In this document: positions 2,798 through 42,985 of the stretch, one piece after another
Numbering within the stretch: position 1 is the stretch's first letter
Layout: each line of letters starts with the position of its first letter
Origin: Phlyctochytrium arcticum
Taxonomy: Eukaryota > Chytridiomycota > Chytridiomycetes > Chytridiales > Chytridiaceae
DNA length: 64,000 nucleotides
Reading direction: 5' to 3'
Assembly (NCBI GenBank): GCA_025602905.1
Contig: JAHLKI010000034.1
Span: 182,335 to 246,334 of the forward strand
Position numbers and translations under genes: made by a program
The notes under the pieces: generated by a model
What the model was told of the DNA's origin: nothing
The model's database searches: none
Seen by the model: the letters and a program-made list of their open reading frames with translations, nothing else

Positions 2798-4391
2798 GTG
2801 GTTGTCCACCTGGCTGATAGGTAATCGAAGCAGCTTGTTTGCGTTTTCCCTTAAATCCCACTTGGCGGCGAGAGTGTACTGGTTGCTGGATCGTCTCCTC
2901 TGGGTATTGAGGTATCGAAGCTTCCTTCTGCAGAGATGTTGGCCGTGATTCCCACGGTCAAAGCGTTTGTCACGGTTGTGGTTTCGAGAGCCCGAACCAC
3001 TTGAAGTCTTTCGAACGAAAGGCGCTGCGCAAATGCTTAGTAGAATAAGCCACGTTCAGGGCCTGCGCAAAACTCCCCCAAGATCTTGCGCTGAAATCTT
3101 GAAAACGATCGAGACTTTGGCATCACATTAGCTGGTCAAGGGCGGGTCCGAGATCTCCAACACGGTCGGCAATGAGTCTGGGGGCTGACTTGCCTGCAGG
3201 GAATCAGGAATCGCTGTAGAGTTTTTTGCACTTGGTCACGCAATGTAAATCACCCTTTGCGAGTGACAGTTGACCTTCTCGAAGCTGCACAACCCCATCC
3301 TTTCATCTCGTTGATGGCATTACTCCAGGCATCATTTCGCACGAAGATTCTCTCATTTAGTGTTCCGCTTTTCTCATGCTCAAGATGAATAGTGGAATAT
3401 GCTTGATCGAAAAAGAACCTCGTTTCTTGCATGGACTGTCCTTGCGGCCTTGCCTGCATTAGATGGTTGAAAAGCCCATGTCAGTCTTCACATCCATATC
3501 CCTGTGAAAGTTCCAGTGACAGTACCGGCCAATAACTTTGTGTCCGTGACCCACACTCTTTCTGCGATGCGCCGGAGACCTCAAATGATGCGGAAGTCAG
3601 CAAAGGATCCTAAACCAAATGTGTAACAAACGGCGTGAAAGCCGCTGAGAGAAGATCAAAGGGGAGGATCATTACCCGTCGGCTTTCTGATGTGAGAAAA
3701 TGGTATGTTCCTATTCACGCATTTGGGTAACAACACCCAAACGGGGCGATGGAAATTTCCCTCTAAAGTGATTTCTGGTCTTTGGTGGGCCTTACTCCTG
3801 TGGGTACATGCACTGTGCTGGATCCAGAGCTGGAGCAGCCACCACCTGTCAGTCTGACAGCTGTCAACTGCTTGTCCTTGGCGGACATGGATGCGCACAG
3901 GTGCCCAGCCGGCGCGTGGGAAACTTTCTTAGAGTCTTGGGCTTGCACACGCTGTCCTGTCCAACGACCGGGGAAGAGTTTCCATTTCTTTAGCCAAAGA
4001 AGTTCAGCGCTTAATGCTCTTGACTGGCAATGCTAGAGCGTGCACGGCATCGGATAACATGAATACGTATGTTCCGTTTTAAAGTCGTTGCATGCCGGAA
4101 GCCAAATGTCACATAGTTTCCGGCATCTCAGCTTCCTTCTGTAAAGAATCAGTCAAAAGTGTCGAATTTTTTCGTTCCTCACGCCAGAGCTGTCAAAAAC
4201 ACCCCTGGGAAGCAAGTGACAGGTGTTGCTCGGGGAGAAAAAGAATTACCGCAAGATTGGACACGGCCCTTGCTTCATTTGTGCGTTTCCGCGCTGCCCT
4301 GTTGGCTGAAGGTGGAGGTGGGGTATAGACTGACAGGATGCCTTCGGTGGGGTAGGAGTTGAACGCTTTGTTCTCTCTCCCGCAAAATCCC
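2798..4391. other. Long intergenic region with possible 5' exon of the WD40 gene
   Basis: The minus-strand frame of the WD40-CCCH gene continues open to about 3040. A splice-like CTACTAAG plus downstream CAG lies just beyond, so part of this stretch may be coding. I could not find a donor exon that joins in phase. The rest (about 3050-4390) shows no domain or consistent reading frame. Confidence 0.4.
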
Positions 4392-4399
4392 TATAAAAG
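4392..4399 (+). promoter_or_regulatory. TATA box of the Asn-rich gene
   Basis: TATAAAAG lies about 110 nt upstream of the ATG at 4504, with a pyrimidine/CA-rich leader in between. This is the usual spacing for a TATA-driven promoter with a short 5' UTR. Confidence 0.5.
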
Positions 4400-4503
4400 C
4401 CGGACGGTCTGGTCACCCTCTGGCCATTCATTAACTGCTTCCAACGCACCCAGTCCTACTCACACTCAAACTCATCACCACCAAACCTTCTCTCTACTTC
4501 CCA

Positions 4504-6286
4504 ATGGCTTCCAACCTTAACGTGGAGGATCTGTTGTCTGTCCTCTCTGAACTCACCGGAAACACCTTCGATAATGGCATGGTATGTATCTGCATGTCCC
4601 ATGACTCTTCTACATTGACTGACTTCGAACCTTTAACAGAGCAACTCCTTCAACCGCATGGGTGGTGTCCGTCCCGGCATGTTTGGCGGACTTCGCAACT
4701 CCATGAGCAGCGACAACCTCGGTCTCGGAGGCATGAACCGCAACTACGGCAGCAACATGTTCGATGGATCCAACTACAACGACATCTCTGGCAACAGCCG
4801 CATGCACGGAAACAACATGTTCGATGTGTCCAACTACAATGACATGTCTCGCGGATTCAACTCCAACTCCAGCTACGGCGGCAACAACATGATGTCCGGA
4901 AACTCCTGTCACGAGTGCGACCGCAACCTTTTCAACAACGTTGGTCAGAACAACCGGATGTCCATGAACTGCGGTCACAACATGATGCGCGGCGGCAACG
5001 TGGGCTGGGGTATGAACAACGGACGAGGCAACATTGCAACACCCGAAATGCTCTTGGTCATTGTCCTCGCCGAGCTCATCATGCACGCGTACGGTCGCAA
5101 CCAGATGGATGGCTTTGGAGGAAAGAACCAGTTCGACAACAGCCTGATTGACGAGATTTTCAACACTCGCCGTCGTGGTGCTCTCCAAATTGACGATCTG
5201 GTCGACATTGTGCAAGAGCTGTCTGCAACGCGCGGCAACAACCGCCAGTACGGCAACCAAGGACGTCCCAACAATCTTTTCAACGGTCAATCTGGTCGCC
5301 AGAATGTTCGCCCCAACGAGCTTGAACAGATGCTCTCGGAGATGCTGGAGAACATCCAATTGAACGGCCGCGAGAACCAGGGAACATTCCGCAACAAAAA
5401 CGTCGGCAGCATGATTGACCAACTTCGCATGCGCGGCAACAACGACTCTCTTCTCCAGGATGTTGTCATGGTCTTGATCAACCGTCTTGTTCGCAGCCTC
5501 GACATGAACGACCATCAGTCAGCTCGCTTCGAGCTTGATCTTTTGCAGTTTCTGCTGAACAACATCAGCAACCAAGATGGAATGACCAACAACATTGATA
5601 TCTCCGAAGTCCTTCAAATGCTGCTCAACGGATACGACATGCCCATGCGTAACCAGTTTGGCAAGCACGATGTTATTCGCCAAATTTTGCGCATGCAGAA
5701 CAACAACGGTGGCGGTATGATGCGGCGCGGCAACGGAATGTCTGGCCGTACAAGCACCAACAACAATAACCAAATCTTGCACATGCTCCGTCAGTGGTTC
5801 CGGGACCAAGATGGCAGTGACGAGCAAGATTTTCGTGACCAGCGCTTTCGCAACTTTCTCGGGCAATTCAACAACGGGTCCATCGGACAGAGATTCCCCG
5901 GCGGGTTCAACCAGTCATCGGAAGGACGCAACAACTGGACGAACAACCAGACATCGGCACCGTGGTTCGAGAACGAGGAAAACTTCTTCGGACCTTCGCA
6001 ACAAAGGCAAGGCTCCCGCGGCGGGTTCAACAACGTCTTTGGAGGAGGTCAGTCCGCGACTCAACAATTCCGACGTGGAGGGTTGGTCGACGCCCTCATC
6101 GACACCTTCGCCTCCCAGCGCGGCCAAGGACAATTCAACAACATCCGCAGCACCACCAAAAACTTTGGAACCAACAACAACCGCGGGTCTGCCGTCGATG
6201 CCTTACTCGACGAGCTCACCAATGGAGGCGGGCAAAACGTTCAAGGTCGCCGCAACAGCCGCGTTGGGCCTTGGGTCAATGTCTAG
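4504..6286 (+). CDS. Asn/Gly-rich low-complexity protein
   Basis: Two exons, 4504-4581 and 4640-6286, separated by a 58-nt intron (GTATGT...TTAACAG), give 574 aa. The short N-terminus (MASNLNVEDLLSVLSELTGN) is followed by a long region dominated by Asn, Gly, Arg, Met and Gln, with repeated NNN, GGN and RGN runs. Interspersed Leu-rich amphipathic segments recur in the pattern DxLL/LLxxL (for example around LVDIVQELSATRG, LEQMLSEMLENI and ALLDELTNG). There is no signal peptide or membrane segment. I do not recognise a family. The composition is prion-like, which hints at a condensate-forming or RNA-associated protein, but that is inference from composition only. A TATA box precedes it. The 3' end is odd: a shifted frame just past the stop looks spliced and coding. 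Confidence 0.7.
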
Positions 6287-6512
6287 TCTCACAGATTCTT
6301 CCGGGCAATCCTCTACTAATAGCGAGTAAGTCCTTCCTATTTCTTCCTTGGGAACGTTAACCAACTTTCTTTCAAGATATCAGATTGTCTCTATTCCTGG
6401 CACTCCTGGTTCAGAACAGGAAAGTGGTTCTCCGTCGCCTGAAAGGAAAAGTTCACACTCTCGAGAGGACTCTGGTGCTTCTTCTACTTATAATGGGGAT
6501 GATTGTTCTTAG
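6279..6512 (+). other. Candidate spliced Ser-rich tail or small ORF overlapping the stop
   Basis: An ATG at 6279, in a frame shifted from the Asn-rich gene, runs to 6325. A consensus donor (GTAAGT at 6326), a CGTTAACC branch-like site and an acceptor ending at 6376 define a 51-nt intron. The frame then continues to a stop at 6510-6512. The product is 60 aa, Ser/Glu/Gly-rich. It could be an alternative C-terminus of the Asn-rich protein (needing a further frame change upstream), a separate small protein, or chance. Confidence 0.3.
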
Positions 6513-6989
6513 TATGATAGATAGTTTGTATTGTTTAAAATTTTGTTCATATATCTGATAAAGCAATAAAGCAATAAAATTGTGCTGTGAAAGAAAGTTT
6601 TTGTTCATACTTGATGTGACGCTGTCAAAAGCTTCTTTATTTTCTGCTTTATTCTCACGATGACTGTTCATCTTGCCTATGTGTGGCTTGAAAACGTGCG
6701 GGATTTGGGCGTGAAGTAGAGTGATACCGGAAGGTGACCAATCTTGCTTTTCGGTTGTACATCCTGCCATCGAGGTTTTAACTACTTCTTAGAACCCATT
6801 TTGTATCCAGAGCTTTGAGCCCATGCGATAGCTCATTATGTTCAGTCTCAGGAAAGAGAAGAAACATGCAATATGTTTTACGTGAGATATTTATGACAAC
6901 CATAAAAAAAGTCAGAGACCATGGGAAAAGATGCAGAAATAAGGTATAAAACCAATGCAGAGGCAATCTAGCTACGAACAGTTTGGTTA
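6513..6989. other. Convergent intergenic spacer
   Basis: AT-rich DNA between the 3' ends of the Asn-rich gene and the minus-strand glycosyltransferase. AATAAA-like motifs near 6565-6580 could serve as polyadenylation signals. No gene is seen. Confidence 0.4.
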
Positions 6990-8573
6990 TCATGGAAGAC
7001 TCTGCAGAGTTTTCTTGGTAACTGGTATAAGGTGAGGACGACTGGAGATGTTGGGTATGGAGGTCACATTTGCGTTGTGAGTGGTCTCCTCGTTGTCATT
7101 GGCAATAGTGCAATAGGCAGAAAGCAGGTCCTTGACAGCCATGTTGATCCCAAACCCATCCACCGCAATTCTCCGAGCTCGAACACGCGCAGTCTCTCGC
7201 TCATACTGGAAGCAATGGATGACCTTCTGCACAAAATCGTGCGTATCATGCTCTTCAAACATCCAGTCGTCCAACTCTCGGTAGACGCTTTTGAAGGCAC
7301 CAGCTCGCACCATCACGGAAGGGGTACCGCAAGCCAGGGCTTCTGCGACGGTAAACCCAAATGTCTCGGAAGCGGACGCGGAAACAAAGATGTCAGCGTG
7401 AGCGTAGTAGGCGGCAATTTCGCGCTCAGACAGAACCATGCCGGTAAAGATGACTCGGTGAGAGGACGTTGATGCTGGAATGGCTGAGGAAAGGGCAAGG
7501 GCGGAAAAGGGTGGTTCAATCGCAGCAGATGTGGCGGCAGTGGAGGTACTTGGAGCAGGATTTGAGAAAACAGCGTCAGATCCCACAGTGGCGTCTGCGA
7601 CTTCCTTCAAATCGGAGCGAGATGGGCCATCACCAACTATGACAAGGGTAGCATTGGCGAGGAGGGGATCCGCCAGACAAGATATGAGGAACTCTACATT
7701 TTTCTCAGGGGCAAGACGGCCGATGTACACCATTGTTGGCCCGCGGCGGAAGCTGCTGCTGCCTGGCGAGATGGGTCGCTCGTTCACTGAGTACGGAGGT
7801 AAAAATTCCTGATCCATCCCGCGAGGTTGAAAAGTCGCGTACTCTGGGCCATCCGCCTTCTCCTCCTCCTGTTCCATTTTCAGGTCATGCAAGCTCGCAC
7901 CTCTCCTCAACACTGAGTTCATGGTACCATTCGTACTTGGTGTAAACACGTCCGTGTCGAGGCCACTCTTCATAAAGTGGATCTTTCGCGCAAAACGAGA
8001 AATGACAGAGTCTGCTGTTTTTGATGGAATTCCGACCAAATCCGCAAAGAAAACCATTGGTACGATATACACCCATGTGTAAATCAAGTTGATGAAGTTG
8101 CCCGCAAGCCGATGGTACCAGGTGTTCTTGTCCATAAAGTAGGCTTGTTTATAATACTCCATGTAAACGTGGTAAGAAATGTAAATCTTGACTCCGCGTA
8201 ACCAAAAGAGTGGGGTGATTGCCCAGAACGCAAGGCAAAGAGGCGTTACCATATGGAGGACGTCATATGGAACGGGCCGAAATGGGTTGAGGAGCTCCCC
8301 CAAAATGTACAGAGGTGGACAGGCAAACATCCGCTGGCGTGGGTAAAACGGATTGGGTAGCGATGGGACCACAATATCACACGCTGCACCGGCGACGGAT
8401 GCAACCGTCACGACATGTCCTTCATCTCTGTAGCCCTTGATCAGGTTCTTGAAGCGATTGGCGATACCTGAGACATACGGGGGAAGGTACTCGCTTGCTA
8501 CGAGGATGCGTAGCGGCTGATGACCGAGATAGCTTGTAGGAGGTAAATCAGTGACATTTCTCACGACAGACAT
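6990..8573 (-). CDS. GT4-family glycosyltransferase, SQD2-like
   Basis: A single exon of 527 aa. The N-terminal Rossmann lobe begins LRILVASEYLPPYVSGIANR, the acceptor-lobe signature of the GT4 sulfoquinovosyl/digalactosyl-type enzymes, followed by a hydrophobic stretch (LCLAFWAITPLFWL) and SYHVYMEYYKQ. The C-terminal nucleotide-sugar lobe has MVYIGRLAPEKNVEFLI and the GT4 motif SASETFGFTVAEALACGTPSV with the paired Glu residues. A Ser/Ala-rich insertion interrupts the C-lobe. Known GT4 relatives transfer a sugar from a UDP or GDP donor to a lipid head group; here a membrane-lipid acceptor is plausible. SQD2 makes sulfoquinovosyl diacylglycerol in plants and bacteria, but the substrate cannot be read from this sequence. 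There is no signal peptide. The start at 8573 is the first ATG and precedes the conserved lobe by about 20 residues. Confidence 0.85.
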   Translation of the reverse strand: MSVVRNVTDLPPTSYLGHQPLRILVASEYLPPYVSGIANRFKNLIKGYRDEGHVVTVASVAGAACDIVVPSLPNPFYPRQRMFACPPLYILGELLNPFRPVPYDVLHMVTPLCLAFWAITPLFWLRGVKIYISYHVYMEYYKQAYFMDKNTWYHRLAGNFINLIYTWVYIVPMVFFADLVGIPSKTADSVISRFARKIHFMKSGLDTDVFTPSTNGTMNSVLRRGASLHDLKMEQEEEKADGPEYATFQPRGMDQEFLPPYSVNERPISPGSSSFRRGPTMVYIGRLAPEKNVEFLISCLADPLLANATLVIVGDGPSRSDLKEVADATVGSDAVFSNPAPSTSTAATSAAIEPPFSALALSSAIPASTSSHRVIFTGMVLSEREIAAYYAHADIFVSASASETFGFTVAEALACGTPSVMVRAGAFKSVYRELDDWMFEEHDTHDFVQKVIHCFQYERETARVRARRIAVDGFGINMAVKDLLSAYCTIANDNEETTHNANVTSIPNISSRPHLIPVTKKTLQSLP

Positions 8574-37630: not shown

Positions 37631-38880
37631 ATGTCCTACCAACTATTACAGCAGGTAAGCCAGCTCATCAACAGATACGAAAAGGAACAAACCGAACGCA
37701 TTAGAAAATTGCAAGAAGAGAACAACAATTTACGACTGGACTTGATAGCCGCACAGAAAGAAAAGAATCCGAACAACGCTTGTTTCCGAAGATTAGCCAC
37801 TGCCAGTACGTCCTGTTGCCACCATCTGCTTTTGCATGTATCGTTTTGACAACGAAGCAGGTGATGTACGTCAACGGTGCGTTCTTTGAGGGTTTCCCGA
37901 TTACGTATGGTCTTGCTAACCGGATGATCGACGGTACATTCGTCGGATGGACATCTCGATGATGTGTACCGCTCGTCAACCGTAAATGTCTCAAAGTGGC
38001 GCAGCGAGAAGACGAAATACGGTTGTCAACGGACATGTTCTCAAGGTTAAACATCTCTCGGCAAAAACTTACAATGTCGTATACGGTATCTGCACCTCAA
38101 GCCAAGCTGTTTGGATTCACTCCGAAATATGTCTGGGACGACTTTACAGTAGAGCACGCAGTGCTGGCCCGGCTGATCAAGAAACAAACCTTTGCGCTGT
38201 TTATGGACATCGAGGACAAGGAGATGGAAATCAAGACGGTGTCCACCAATATACTCAACGAAAATGGGATCGATTTGATGGAGTTTCGTCAACTGGCGAT
38301 GAAGCAAAGGAGAACCGCACTGAAACAGGCCAGATTAGTAGAGGCCCAAATGTTGCTGGACCAAGAAGGGGCTGATCAAGAACCAGTCCATCTGGAACTC
38401 TATGGGGATGCCACCAACCCAGCAATACTGTTGGAAAGCCACGACCGGGGAGAAGAGGAACACACTACAGATGCTGAAGACGCCGATGAAGAGGTGCAAG
38501 TTGATAGCGAGAACCAGTTCGACACCCAGTTCGATACCCAGTATGAAGATGAAGATAGCAATAGCGATGGAAAGCAAGAAGGGTTGAGTGACGAAATTGT
38601 GTCACTGCTACAAGAACTGGAGAAGTACCGAGACGGACACTGTGATAGGTGTGCATCGAAAGATAGGGAGTTAGAAGCATTGAGGGCCGACTTACGAGAA
38701 TGTCAACGAGAACGGGACCTCTGGCGACGTCGATATATGGAAATGGAAGGAAACGAACGAAAAGCTGTGAAAGGCAAGAAGCGAACTCGCTTCGAACAGA
38801 TTGAAAGTAATGGGTCCCATTACGCATTTGAGGGAATTGAAAAAACAGATTTGGATGTAACATTGAGACCTCATCGATGA
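37631..38880 (+). pseudogene. Broken gene for an unknown coiled-coil protein
   Basis: The frame from ATG 37631 encodes a coiled coil (SQLINRYEKEQTERIRKLQE...). Homologous-looking coding continues in another frame from about 37760 (LPPSAFACIVLTTKQVMYVN, then FEGFPITYGLANRMIDGTFV) and runs into the 295-codon frame 37996-38880 after a single TGA near 37965. The long frame has a globular-looking part (SAPQAKLFGFTPKYVWDDFT, MDIEDKEMEIKTVSTNIL), an acidic Asp/Glu/Ser stretch and a Glu/Arg-rich C-terminal coiled coil with one CDRC. One frameshift and one stop separate the pieces, so a single gene of about 410 codons has decayed only slightly. The family is not recognised. It sits in the mobile insert next to a Pif1-like fragment and an IS607-Fanzor relic. 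Confidence 0.5.
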
Positions 38881-39106
38881 TAAGGACCTGCAAGATCTGC
38901 CAAGGAACTCTACTGCGCCGTTGTACTTTGTGGTAATCGGTTATACTTCGGGTGTCAGGTTTGATTCCAAGAAAGCGGTGAATGGTTTGACCACCCACGT
39001 TCAAAGCAGCCACACCTGTGGGTGCCAAGACGCGGTAAATAATATTCCTAGCGTCGAACTCTCCACAAAGATACTTGATCAAGAAGCTTTTTCCAGTACC
39101 GTTCAA
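38870..39106 (-). pseudogene. Pif1-like helicase fragment
   Basis: About 75 codons on the minus strand preserve the first helicase motifs of the Pif1/RecD-like family: Walker A LNGTGKSFLIKYLCGEF, motif Ia VLAPTGVAALNVGGQTIHRFLGI, and Walker B LIIDEVSMLHPNLF. Similarity stops near 38870, exactly where the plus-strand unknown gene ends, and starts abruptly at 39106 without an upstream exon. It is therefore truncated at both sides. Full Pif1 enzymes are 5'-3' DNA helicases of several hundred residues and are found in Helitrons, giant viruses and cellular genomes. Which of these is the source cannot be told from this piece. Confidence 0.8.
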
Positions 39107-39193
39107 ACTAACTGGTTAGACCTGATTAGGTAATGCCTTTGGTTATTCCTGTATATTTTCTTTTTTTTATCGATAAGGAGAACGTCTATATAA

Positions 39194-39649
39194 ATGCTGG
39201 CGGGAAGGGCTGCCAAGCACCTCGGGGTATCCGCTGTTACATTACGCCGTTGGGAACAACAAGGTCGGATTCAAACAACTAGAGCCCCCAGTGGTCATCG
39301 GATATACGATGTCACTTCAATTCGAATGCCCCCCACCACCTCCACCTCCACCTCAGCCCCCTCCTCACCTACCTCCTTCACAGGCAAAACTCAAGAAAAG
39401 GAAAAAGAAGGAGGAAAAAGAGAAAGTTACATCTACGCCAGAGTCTCCAGTCGTAAACAACACCCAGACCTTCAACGACAAGTTGCCTTGCTCAAACAAC
39501 GATACCCCTCCTTCACAGTCATCACCGATATTGGGTCAGGGATCAACATTCTCTTGGGTTTACGAGAAGGATATGTACAGGTTAGCGAAAACCAAGCTAA
39601 TCCCAGCATCGTAGCTCTGGATCCAGGAGTTGTCAGCTTTCACACATAA
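39194..39649 (+). CDS. Chimeric IS607-type TnpA / Fanzor relic ORF
   Basis: A 151-aa open frame with two unrelated ends. Residues 1-43 (LAGRAAKHLGVSAVTLRRWE, then GHRIYDVTS) are the MerR-like helix-turn-helix of IS607-family recombinases. A Pro/Ser/Thr/Lys low-complexity linker follows, then the serine-recombinase start (SYIYARVSSRKQHPDLQRQV, catalytic Ser in YARVSS) up to ITDIGSGIN. The rest of the recombinase is gone. The frame then reads ENQANPSIVALDPGVVSFHT, which matches the RuvC-I motif of TnpB/Fanzor nucleases (catalytic Asp in LDPGV). In intact elements tnpA and fanzor are separate genes, so an internal deletion has fused them. It is probably non-functional as recombinase or nuclease. 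Eukaryotic IS607 elements with Fanzor are known from Spizellomyces. Confidence 0.8.
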   Translation: MLAGRAAKHLGVSAVTLRRWEQQGRIQTTRAPSGHRIYDVTSIRMPPTTSTSTSAPSSPTSFTGKTQEKEKEGGKRESYIYARVSSRKQHPDLQRQVALLKQRYPSFTVITDIGSGINILLGLREGYVQVSENQANPSIVALDPGVVSFHT

Positions 39650-39818
39650 TATTCTCCCACGCATGGGTCTGGTAGCATTGGTACACCAGATATCGAACGT
39701 ATCGTTCGTTGCTGTAATGGTTCGAGATGTGAATGCCGCGAAAGGCATCCTTCTGCGAGCGCTAGCGTGTGGAGCGCTCGCCGCGCCTGAGACTTCGGTC
39801 GATGATGGCTTTGGCTGA
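39650..39818 (+). pseudogene. Fanzor (TnpB-like nuclease) C-terminal relic
   Basis: Directly after the TAA that closes the chimeric ORF, the same frame continues YSPTHGSGSIGTPDIERIV, the usual Fanzor continuation after RuvC-I. Then, after a frame change and an internal deletion, VRDVNAAKGILLRALACGAL matches the RuvC-III block (RDxNAAxNILLRAL) that ends the nuclease domain. RuvC-II and the zinc ribbon are missing. The catalytic-region order is therefore right, but the gene is heavily deleted. Any guide-RNA (omega RNA) segment should start near this 3' end and run into about 39820-39980. Confidence 0.75.
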
Positions 39819-41042
39819 TGGGCCCTTGTACAACATTAGTACATGCACATGGATCATTGGCTATATTTGACTAGTTCTGTATAGTAGTGTTCCGATGTAA
39901 TCCATCCGGCTGAACCAGTTATTTGAACATTCTCCCCAAAAAGAGCGTGCTGTACAATGGCTTCTTGCTCACTGTTGAGGGGAGTAGCTGTTTCCGAGCA
40001 GGAATTTTCGGTATAAAGTTGGGTCAGGGCTCGTAGCAGTTGCCCATATAGTTACACATCATTCTTCAAGTTTACAAATCTGCTGTGCTCTTATTTGTGA
40101 CCCTGCGTATCTACTAAACGACCGAGACCTGTAGTCACCATCGCTGCTGTTGACGTAGATAATCTGAATATCATCGGCGCAGAAATGCTATCTATTACAC
40201 ACGGCTAAGTCTTGCATAAGAGTTCGAAAATGAAAGACTTTGTTCATATTACTTACTGTTAATGGCTTACAGATCGAATATCTCAACCAGCCCCGAAGGC
40301 ACTGGCATTTTCTTACATCAAACGGGTTATATCACACAGCTTTTGAAACGTTTTTTTTTCAATGGACGCAACAAATCCAACTCATACACCAATGGAAGTC
40401 TGCAGCTTGAGAAGCAAACGAAGCACCGTTGGACCCTGCAGTCCCATATTTCGTGTCTAAACTCGACCTGACCGCGAAACTTAAAAGACCCCATTGAACG
40501 ACATTGGGTTGGCGTCAAATGCAACATGAAATACCTGAAAGGAACTTCCGAGTTCAATTTTATTTTTCCCACGCAAATCAGACCAGATTTTGACCGGATA
40601 CACCGACGCCTGGTCCCGATCGGATTACCCCATTGGCAAGTCTCAAAGCGGATATGTATACCTGGTCGGGAGGAACCGCAATCAGCTGGAACCCAAGCAA
40701 ATAAACCATGGTCACGATATCGACAAATCAATCAGAAGTGATTGTGACGTACGAAGCAGCCCGAGAGGCCTTTGTTTTTCGCCGAGCTTTAAACTTCATC
40801 AACTCAGACTGTTTGCATTGCCACAACTTTCGATGAACCAACTGTCTTATACGGTGACAACGCCGCCATCATCAGCCAAATCGAAAAAGGATACATAAAC
40901 TGCTCGCGAACCCGCCATATAGATCTAAGTATTTCTACGCACACGAAATCAGTCAGATCGACATCGAAGTTACAAAGATTGCGTCAATCGACAACGAAAC
41001 TCGGACTACGGAGTCATCGGACTCTAGACAACAACACCTGAT

Positions 41043-41578: not shown

Positions 41579-42985
41579 TCAAGAAACCAGACCCGTCAAC
41601 TCCCCAGCCGCAGCCATCTCCTTAACAATATCCAGTCCACCCACCAACTCCCCTTTAATGTATACTTGGGGATACGTAGGCCACGACGAAAACGTCTACA
41701 AAAAAAATCAAAAAAAAGGAAAAATTTGGGCAATGGTGTTTTTACCTTTAACCCCTGTCGAACCTCTTCATCTTCGAGAATGTCAAAAGTGTCGTAGGTG
41801 ATGTTATTGTCGCTTAGGAGTTTGGTGATTTGACGTGAAAACCCGCATTTGGGGGTTGTTGGGTCGCCTTTCATGAACAACTAAAAAAACAATTAGGATT
41901 TTTGGGTGAAGGGGGGGAGATGTGTTATTACCATGACGGGAGCGCGGTTGATACTGAGAAGGGAGAGGGGGGTTAATGGGGGTGAAATGGAAGGGGGGGA
42001 GGGGGGACGGCTTACAGTTTGGTGAGTCGGGTATCGAGGTCTTCTTCAATGGGGGCCAATTTTTGGAATTCGCCAGAGGCCACCATTTCTTTCAGGATAT
42101 CGAGCCCGCCAATCAACTCGCCATGAATATAAACTAAAAAAAAAAAGTCAGTTATGTTTCTCACGAAACCCAAAAAGAAACGATGAAACTTGTTACTTTG
42201 AGGAAACGTCGGCCAGGCCGAAAACGTTTTCAGGCCCTGTCGGACCTCTTCGTCCGCCAAGATGTTGAATGAGCCGTAGGGGACGTGGAGGTCGGATAAG
42301 ATGGATACCGTCTCTCGGGAGAATCCGCAGCGGGGTGCTTGGGGTGTTCCCTTGATAAAGACCATGACGGGGTGGGATGAGACGAGCGTTTTGAGGCGGA
42401 ATGTCAAGTCTTTCTTTTCGGTGGTGGGTGCCGGTTGGGGTTGTATTGTTGTTATTGTTGTTGGGGTGGGAGCGGCCGGGTTGGCGGTAGGTGTTGTTTT
42501 GGCAGCAGCAGCACCAGCACCAGCGTATTTTTCGACCGTGCTGGATAAACTCCCCGCATTCGCACCCTCAATCCGTGCCAACACCTTTTTCCCACCATCA
42601 CCCAACACCAAAAATGTGGGTACAGCCGCAATCTCGTATTCTTCAGCTATATCCCCAAAATTCTCTGCTTCAATCTTAAAAAAAACAAAACCATCAAAGA
42701 ACTACTCTTCCCAAATCCGATTTACTGGTCTTTTTTTTACCTGAACAAACGTCAACCCCGGAAACTTATTACTCAATTCGGCAAACACGGCATTCATGTC
42801 GGTGCAGGGGTCAGCCCACGCTGCCCAAAAGTTGAGGACGGTGAGTGGGCGGGAGCCAACGAGGATCGGGAATTGGGATTCAGACGACAGTTCTAATATA
42901 CCCACGACTTGTTTTAGAATAGTGGGTGGGGTAACTGGGGATGGGAGCAGGATAACGTACCGACGACATTGTGTTTGGTGGCCAT
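41579..42985 (-). CDS. Monothiol glutaredoxin, Trx-Grx-Grx (Grx3/PICOT type)
   Basis: Seven exons: 42985-42961, 42892-42741, 42674-42197, 42133-42016, 41953-41932, 41880-41746 and 41695-41579. They sum to 1047 nt, 348 aa, all in phase. Residues about 9-110 form a thioredoxin-like domain whose active site is WADPC (34-38), with the first Cys replaced by Ala. An Ala/Pro/Thr linker follows, then two glutaredoxin domains, each with the monothiol CGFS site (Cys about 175 and 277). Their glutathione-binding patches are [16 protein letters not shown] and [16 protein letters not shown]. Grx3/4 proteins bind a bridging [2Fe-2S] cluster with glutathione and serve iron sensing and cytosolic/nuclear iron trafficking. 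Ascomycete Grx3/4 has one Grx domain; the two-Grx form is like animal GLRX3. The introns include a 22-nt exon flanked by two short introns. Confidence 0.95.

Follow-up and report, generated by a model that had tools for sequence, protein, structure and literature searches.

A Decayed IS607-Fanzor2 Element, Probably Inserted Antisense in a PIF1-Like Helicase Gene of Phlyctochytrium arcticum

Introduction

The mimivirus elements of the ISvMimi_1 type combine a Fanzor2 with an IS607 TnpA (PMC3627910, section 13), and they differ from the locus described here by their giant-virus host. In chytrids, the described system is SPu-1 of Spizellomyces punctatus, which shares with this locus a chytrid host and a Fanzor, but its nuclease is a Fanzor1; SPu-1 has terminal inverted repeats and a TA duplication (PMC3627910, section 5), and the account of it in PMC10432273 places no transposase between its repeats. 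In the table of Bao and Jurka (2013; PMC3627910), the fungi listed with Fanzor2 are four yeasts. Saito et al. (2023; PMC10432273) already report in their survey a broad presence of Fanzor2 in fungi, and therefore the host range found here is not in itself new. According to the passages cited, IS607 inserts at GG without duplication (PMC6188088), a bacterial IS607 TnpB is associated with a GGG motif (PMC10711439), and DPG together with an alternative glutamate is the fingerprint of Fanzor (PMC10711439, section 23). If a living element of the kind treated here behaves like its relatives, for which both activities are established, its TnpA would excise a circle and insert it at GG, and its Fanzor2, carrying a guide RNA from the 3' end of the element, would cut matching DNA.

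The stretch of DNA analyzed, hereafter the window, comprises 64,000 nucleotides of the P. arcticum genome. An original prediction had placed in it an IS607 recombinase fused to a Fanzor nuclease relic. Our analysis indicates, with a probability of about 0.93, that the locus is a decayed copy of an IS607-Fanzor2 element, internally deleted and dead, that was inserted antisense in a PIF1-like helicase gene. The kind of element is already known; what is new is that both of its ends have been located, and its anatomy is unusually clear. The locus provides a well-bounded IS607-Fanzor2 insertion in a eukaryotic genome, whose two ends and target site are known, as is the gene that it interrupted, and no description of this case was found in the open-licence literature on IS607, fungal or chytrid Fanzor, and fused TnpB. 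The features of the locus are collected in Table 1.

Table 1. Features of the relic and of its flanks (positions in the window).
Feature	Position	Strand	Evidence and remarks
Whole IS607-Fanzor2 relic	39101..39907	+	807 bp; limits +/-1-2 bases (crossover within CCG)
Left junction, CCG common to the right junction	39099..39101	.	CC here is GG on the other strand
Right junction, CCG; the right-end tag GATGTAATCYATCCG ends here	39906..39908	.	Agrees with the end of homology to C4
PIF1-like helicase downstream of the insertion, from GTGKS on	38858..39100	-	PF05970, PDB PIF1-type chains
PIF1-like helicase upstream of the insertion, up to ITGSA	39908..40051	-	Aligns jointly with the other flank in 8/10 loci
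151-codon open frame, chain of TnpA and Fanzor DNA	39194..39649	+	151 aa
TnpA remnant, MerR-type HTH plus beginning of the serine recombinase domain	39194..39547	+	118 residues, no stop; no shift in the alignment
Short Fanzor2 remnant just before RuvC-I	39546..39572	+	9 residues, tblastn with P0141 residues 560-568; frame differs from that of TnpA
Fanzor2 RuvC-I remnant, DPG motif	39575..39715	+	In-frame stop 39647-39649; tblastn with P0136, P0140, P0141, and others; own-genome search with P0137
Fanzor2 C-terminal remnant, RuvC-III RDVN	39711..39818	+	tblastn with P0137 residues 382-416; frame differs from that of RuvC-I
3' tail with the right end, a candidate scaffold for a guide RNA	39816..39908	+	70% identity to C4 over 39717-39908

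The TnpA Remnant

The beginning of the open frame had been predicted to be an IS607-type TnpA, and this identity is borne out by profile and protein matches. The TnpA part matches the MerR model of Pfam above its cut-off (E 2.6e-10) and the IS607 transposase model of NCBIfam with E 8.4e-19 and 67.8 bits, a score that falls below the whole-protein cut-off of 110 because the protein is cut short. The Pfam Resolvase model gives 20 bits, below its cut-off of 23.3, and serine recombinase structures match the same part with E values of 1e-5 and 3e-5. In a search of 5.8 billion proteins, the closest one apart from itself is P0002 (256 aa), with 52% identity over 79% of the query.

The homology stops at DIGSGIN, residue 118, which corresponds to residue 112 of the 256 in P0002, and thus over half of that protein is absent. 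With regard to the traits of IS607, a MerR-type HTH lies ahead of a serine recombinase domain that is partial, and this part includes YARVSS, which we take to be the catalytic serine motif; a complete catalytic domain is absent.

The Fanzor2 Remnants

A set of 66 Fanzor2 relatives was gathered by means of a C-terminal Fanzor piece located elsewhere in the genome and was run by tblastn against positions 38001-41000 of the window; the figures given here come from the best 45 rows. These relatives confirmed that the RuvC-I motif (VALDPGVVSF) and the sequence following the stop are Fanzor-like, as had been proposed. The segment 39575-39715 is 64% identical to P0136 (E 1.7e-16), and 39587-39715 is 70% identical to P0137 over 43 residues (E 4.7e-16). 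The RuvC-III motif postulated after a deletion was also recovered: 39711-39815, with RDVNAAKGILLRAL, matches P0137 with 83% identity over 35 residues (E 7e-14), and the natural stop codon of Fanzor follows at 39816-39818. The second frame alone (39630-39815) matched no Pfam or NCBIfam model, and therefore full-length relatives were needed to show its Fanzor identity; the profile check suggested for this half was negative with Pfam and NCBIfam, and tblastn with full-length Fanzor2 relatives was positive.

Residues 243-381 of P0137 (416 aa) have no counterpart in the relic, a gap of about 139 codons in which RuvC-II with its alternative glutamate and the zinc finger are lost. The two pieces overlap by five bases (39711-39715) at this second joint, which would suit a deletion at a short repeat. 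Among the traits of Fanzor2, RuvC-I with DPG is present; the alternative RuvC-II glutamate, six residues ahead of the zinc finger, is deleted here and kept in the five top-listed relatives, all of which have DPG as well; the C4 zinc finger is deleted, and the RuvC-III aspartate is represented by RDVN in another frame. The Fanzor sequence lies downstream of tnpA on the same strand, as is the trait of IS607.

Two deletions, one frameshift, and one stop were counted in the relic. As estimated from the relatives, one deletion removed about 1 kb spanning the boundary of tnpA and Fanzor2, and the other about 420 bp within the Fanzor2 gene. The relic is unable to make the transposase, most of whose catalytic domain is gone, and unable to make the nuclease, which has lost RuvC-II and the zinc finger; neither enzyme can be made from it, and therefore the relic is dead.

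An Open Frame Across Two Genes

The 151-codon frame exists as originally described. However, TnpA and Fanzor meet near 39547 in different frames; the Fanzor frame is regained through a frameshift near 39573, and the stop follows at 39647. The stretch of about 39548-39572 within the "fused" frame seems to be Fanzor DNA read in the wrong frame, as judged from a 9-residue match to P0141. Given the mismatch of frames at the joint, the 151-codon frame is no in-frame weld; as we read the sequence, the continuity across the gene joint is coincidental, the product of two breaks, and yields no new fusion protein. Of the proposal that an internal deletion welded the two genes, the deletion stands, and the in-frame weld has to be given up. 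This removes a false lead, namely, a supposed transposase-nuclease fusion protein.

Two other readings would grant the frame a function. The first is that the 151-aa protein is made and retained as a truncated transposase, which would bind DNA and repress IS607 elements or serve as a regulator in the host. The TnpA part has in fact a start codon and 118 stop-free codons, and the breaks sit in the Fanzor part, but this contrast is weak, given that two random breaks over about 209 codons would both miss TnpA in an estimated 1 of 5 cases. Moreover, the assembly contains no other copy with the same truncation in which constraint could be tested, and TnpA occurs at just one other place in it, and we consider a retained repressor very unlikely. 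The second is that the locus belongs to a spliced gene, either an ordinary host gene from another family or one encoding TnpA and Fanzor. Introns may occur in such elements, as the other TnpA of the assembly, at C8, looks by eye to be interrupted by one, and 4 of 81 Fanzor relatives are predicted chains containing TnpA. Nevertheless, the roughly 139 codons with RuvC-II and the zinc finger, the C-terminal half of TnpA, and the N-terminal half of Fanzor are all absent from the local DNA, so that splicing would be unable to restore them, and the probability of a spliced gene is close to nil. A dead, internally deleted element remains by far the preferred reading of the frame.

Ends of the Element and the Interrupted Helicase Gene

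The original prediction gave the extent as 39194..39818; the parts lie where it put them, but the element is larger, with a TnpA remnant followed by Fanzor2 remnants between the limits listed in Table 1. These limits are uncertain by 1-2 bases because the crossover falls within CCG.

The right end was located by comparison with two sister relics. The DNA of the window relic is 70% identical to the C4 sister over 39717-39908 (E 9e-25), an alignment that reaches past the Fanzor stop, and the last 42 nt resemble the C2 sister weakly (71%, E 1.1, or 0.03 in a smaller set); both alignments end at ATCCG. The 15-base right-end tag was built from the window and C2 sequences, and the scan of the assembly found it exact only in these two. 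With at most one mismatch, 15 sites were found (the window, C2, C4, and 12 others), versus 3 for the backward pattern. Solo right ends were sought among the 12 other near matches and rejected, as none of them shares the upstream tail. A left-end repeat matching the right end was not found, the comparison yielding 7-base direct matches only. The tag offers a handle for finding living copies in related fungi. Two copies of an unrelated repeat, at C2:83600 and C2:408400 (L047, L048), 76% identical over 165 bases, happen to include a near match of it, and the repeat continues past the tag.

Outside the relic, translation of the minus strand gives NSEQEAIVQHALFGENVQITGSA in the right flank, and in the left flank GTGKSFLIKYL with its continuation. 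The uncut left frame matches PF05970 with E 1.4e-12, starting at residue 2 and profile position 31; with the flank cut at 39100 the match has E 1.2e-11, and PDB PIF1-type chains match this flank with E 3e-11 to 1e-6. When 39101-39907 is omitted, a single open frame runs through Walker A, GSAGTGKSFL. We tried 168 CC-to-CC excisions in three frames each; 29 readings were open across the joint, and only one excision of the 168, at 39100/39907, rebuilds Walker A across it. The crossover within CCG leaves no target duplication, in line with the GG (CC) insertion of IS607. The right limit obtained from this reconstruction agrees independently with the point at which homology to the C4 sister stops. 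The site is CC on the tnpA strand, versus GGG for a bacterial IS607 TnpB, and strand or core may thus differ.

For comparison with other helicases, 10 loci were used, six in the own assembly and four viral ones that were found with the left flank alone. Four of the six own loci align through the joint, and the other two (L142, L143) do not and were left out of the scoring of the joined peptide. In the 8 loci scored, the joined peptide aligned through the joint and gained score in every case, from +2.3 bits (L141, L144) to +12 (L147, 53.5 to 65.5), the alignment crossing the joint by just 3-5 residues in four of them. The upstream flank alone (39908..40051) had no significant match, its hits being at chance level (best E 1.3). 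Compared with the stretch before Walker A of six relatives, it clearly beats its shuffles in L147, where 15 of 1000 were as good, but does not for the other five relatives, where 101, 120, 150, 286, and 662 of 1000 shuffles were as good. The insertion is argued from the joined frame, from the Walker A motif, and from the matching position of the right end.

In the history that we propose, an IS607 element with tnpA, Fanzor2, and its 3' end would have entered a CC/GG site in the Walker A codons of a PIF1-like gene, antisense to that gene as read from the anatomy, and by a serine-recombinase exchange, as the family would lead one to expect. The two deletions, together with a frameshift and a stop, would have produced the present relic, and the deletions could have occurred either before or after the insertion.

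The PIF1 family itself gave 102 matches at E <= 0.001 among 109 candidates scored in the assembly, several of them equal-scoring and in long frames. Such frames suggest a repeated element such as a Helitron.

Relatives of the Fanzor Part

A profile built from 15 of the 66 relatives found as its best PDB match the mimivirus TnpB-like L79 (PDB 9b0l), with E 4.5e-46. This best solved relative is presumably the Fanzor2 of an ISvMimi element. Among chytrid and metagenome Fanzor2 proteins (P0136-P0142, of which P0140 and P0141 are from Borealophlyctis nickersoniae), the RuvC-I segment shares 70% identity with P0137 and 68% with P0140; these are long open proteins of 342-790 aa, whereas the window copy lacks most of the protein.

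In prokaryote genomes, the best 80 of at least 445 relatives were considered, mostly cyanobacteria coming first among the matches listed. An IS607 TnpA lies within 3 kb in 22 of these best 80, including the first 16 listed; 21 of the 22 have it on the same strand. Among the loci with cyanobacterial titles, by our own list of these, the proportion is 17 of 21. The presence of TnpA beside TnpB in these loci supports tnpA followed by the nuclease as the ancestral order. The first-listed among the same best 80 include L150-L153 (Microcoleus, Lyngbya, Oscillatoria, Scytonema), where tnpA is likewise upstream of tnpB on the same strand, but which are bacterial and share 33-46% identity with the Fanzor2 query. 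By the profile match, the motifs, and the gene neighborhood of its relatives, the Fanzor part fits the IS607 Fanzor2 or pro-Fanzor lineage. In viral contigs, the search with TnpA P0002 gave one locus and the Fanzor2 profile gave 362 relatives, of which the best 80 were taken.

The predicted chains with TnpA sequence, 4 of 81 Fanzor relatives, are P0123, P0125, P0131, and P0152; by eye, P0126, P0128, and P0131 have another TnpA frame read into Fanzor. These chains could be a gene-model effect, overlapping genes, or intron retention.

Other Copies in the Assembly

The assembly has 31.48 Mb in 91 contigs and is possibly incomplete; the copy searches by protein, family, and DNA scored the best candidates only, and genes split by introns match in parts. 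Complete copies with guide RNAs had been thought probable in other parts of the genome, but the search with the close full-length relative P0137 found fragments and none of full length. It gave 15 matches at E <= 0.001, of which the window accounts for two; the longest match spans 203 of the 416 residues, with 34% identity and 3 stops. Besides the two window matches, identity reaches at least 55% at C2:1679798 (173 residues), C4:27165 (165 residues, 2 stops), and C1:816994 (42 residues). IS607 TnpA was found twice, once in the window and once, decayed, at C8. The zinc-finger family PF07282 gave 32 matches at E <= 10, 13 of them over the cut-off, and thus Fanzor-type sequences are frequent in the assembly.

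A second copy of the deleted form was not found in the assembly, the sole other DNA match being C4, with 106 bases at 79%. This bears on whether the deletions came first and the resulting short element then moved as a MITE-like derivative, by TnpA acting in trans. As would be expected of such a derivative, the relic has kept its two ends and is cleanly inserted, but the deleted form exists in one copy, and none of the 12 further sites that resemble the right-end tag shares upstream sequence with the relic, which makes this course of events unlikely. The original wording, a non-autonomous or dead copy, therefore holds for a dead element, and the single copy speaks against a mobile non-autonomous one.

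The second TnpA, at C8, adjoins a Fanzor of a different and larger family, with an open frame of 731 codons (C8:348997-351189). In the locus L024 (C8:344001-354000, 4997-7908, minus strand), this larger Fanzor overlaps the IS607 TnpA remnants, in which, by eye, a probable short intron (GTATGT...TAG) lies at the KQQG codons and the first part of the HTH is unrecognizable. Its relatives P0121-P0135 are chytrid and metagenome proteins, the named ones belonging to the chytrid fungi Borealophlyctis, Geranomyces, and Thoreauomyces, and none of this family was found in viral contigs. The class of this family, Fanzor1 or Fanzor2, matters because section 24 of PMC10711439 reports no Fanzor1 in IS607 elements.

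In another locus, L026 (C2:1675001-1685000, 3454-5322, plus strand), a frame of 623 codons starts in a pol of Ty1/copia type, recognized by eye, and goes on without a break into C-terminal Fanzor2 sequence (PF07282, E 1.8e-18).

The 3' Tail and Surroundings of the Relic

The tail at 39816-39908 is conserved in the C4 sister relic up to the right end and may be a leftover guide-RNA scaffold. The fold z-scores were -0.03, -1.05, and -0.89 for three stretches of the window, 0.20 for C4, and -1.72 for C2, so in neither the window relic nor its sisters is a guide-RNA fold clearly better than shuffles. Rfam gave nothing at the gathering score; on the opposite strand it listed 4 weak microRNA matches, all scoring far lower. 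It is conceivable, though we regard it as highly improbable, that the right end still yields a guide RNA, whose "ghost" guide would be the adjoining PIF1 sequence, and that the 151-aa truncated TnpA is made and blocks IS607 ends; if this were true, a dead element would keep a regulatory hold on related elements.

The relic lies in a repeat-rich spot, adjoined at 40262-40900 by fragments that resemble, by eye, Ty1/copia reverse transcriptase and RNase H. On the plus strand, a frame of 294 codons (37996-38880) without a Pfam match over the cut-off overlaps the decayed end of PIF1 on the other strand. Further on, at 41596-42611 of the minus strand, two neighboring frames with CGFSR look by eye like glutaredoxin-type proteins in tandem.
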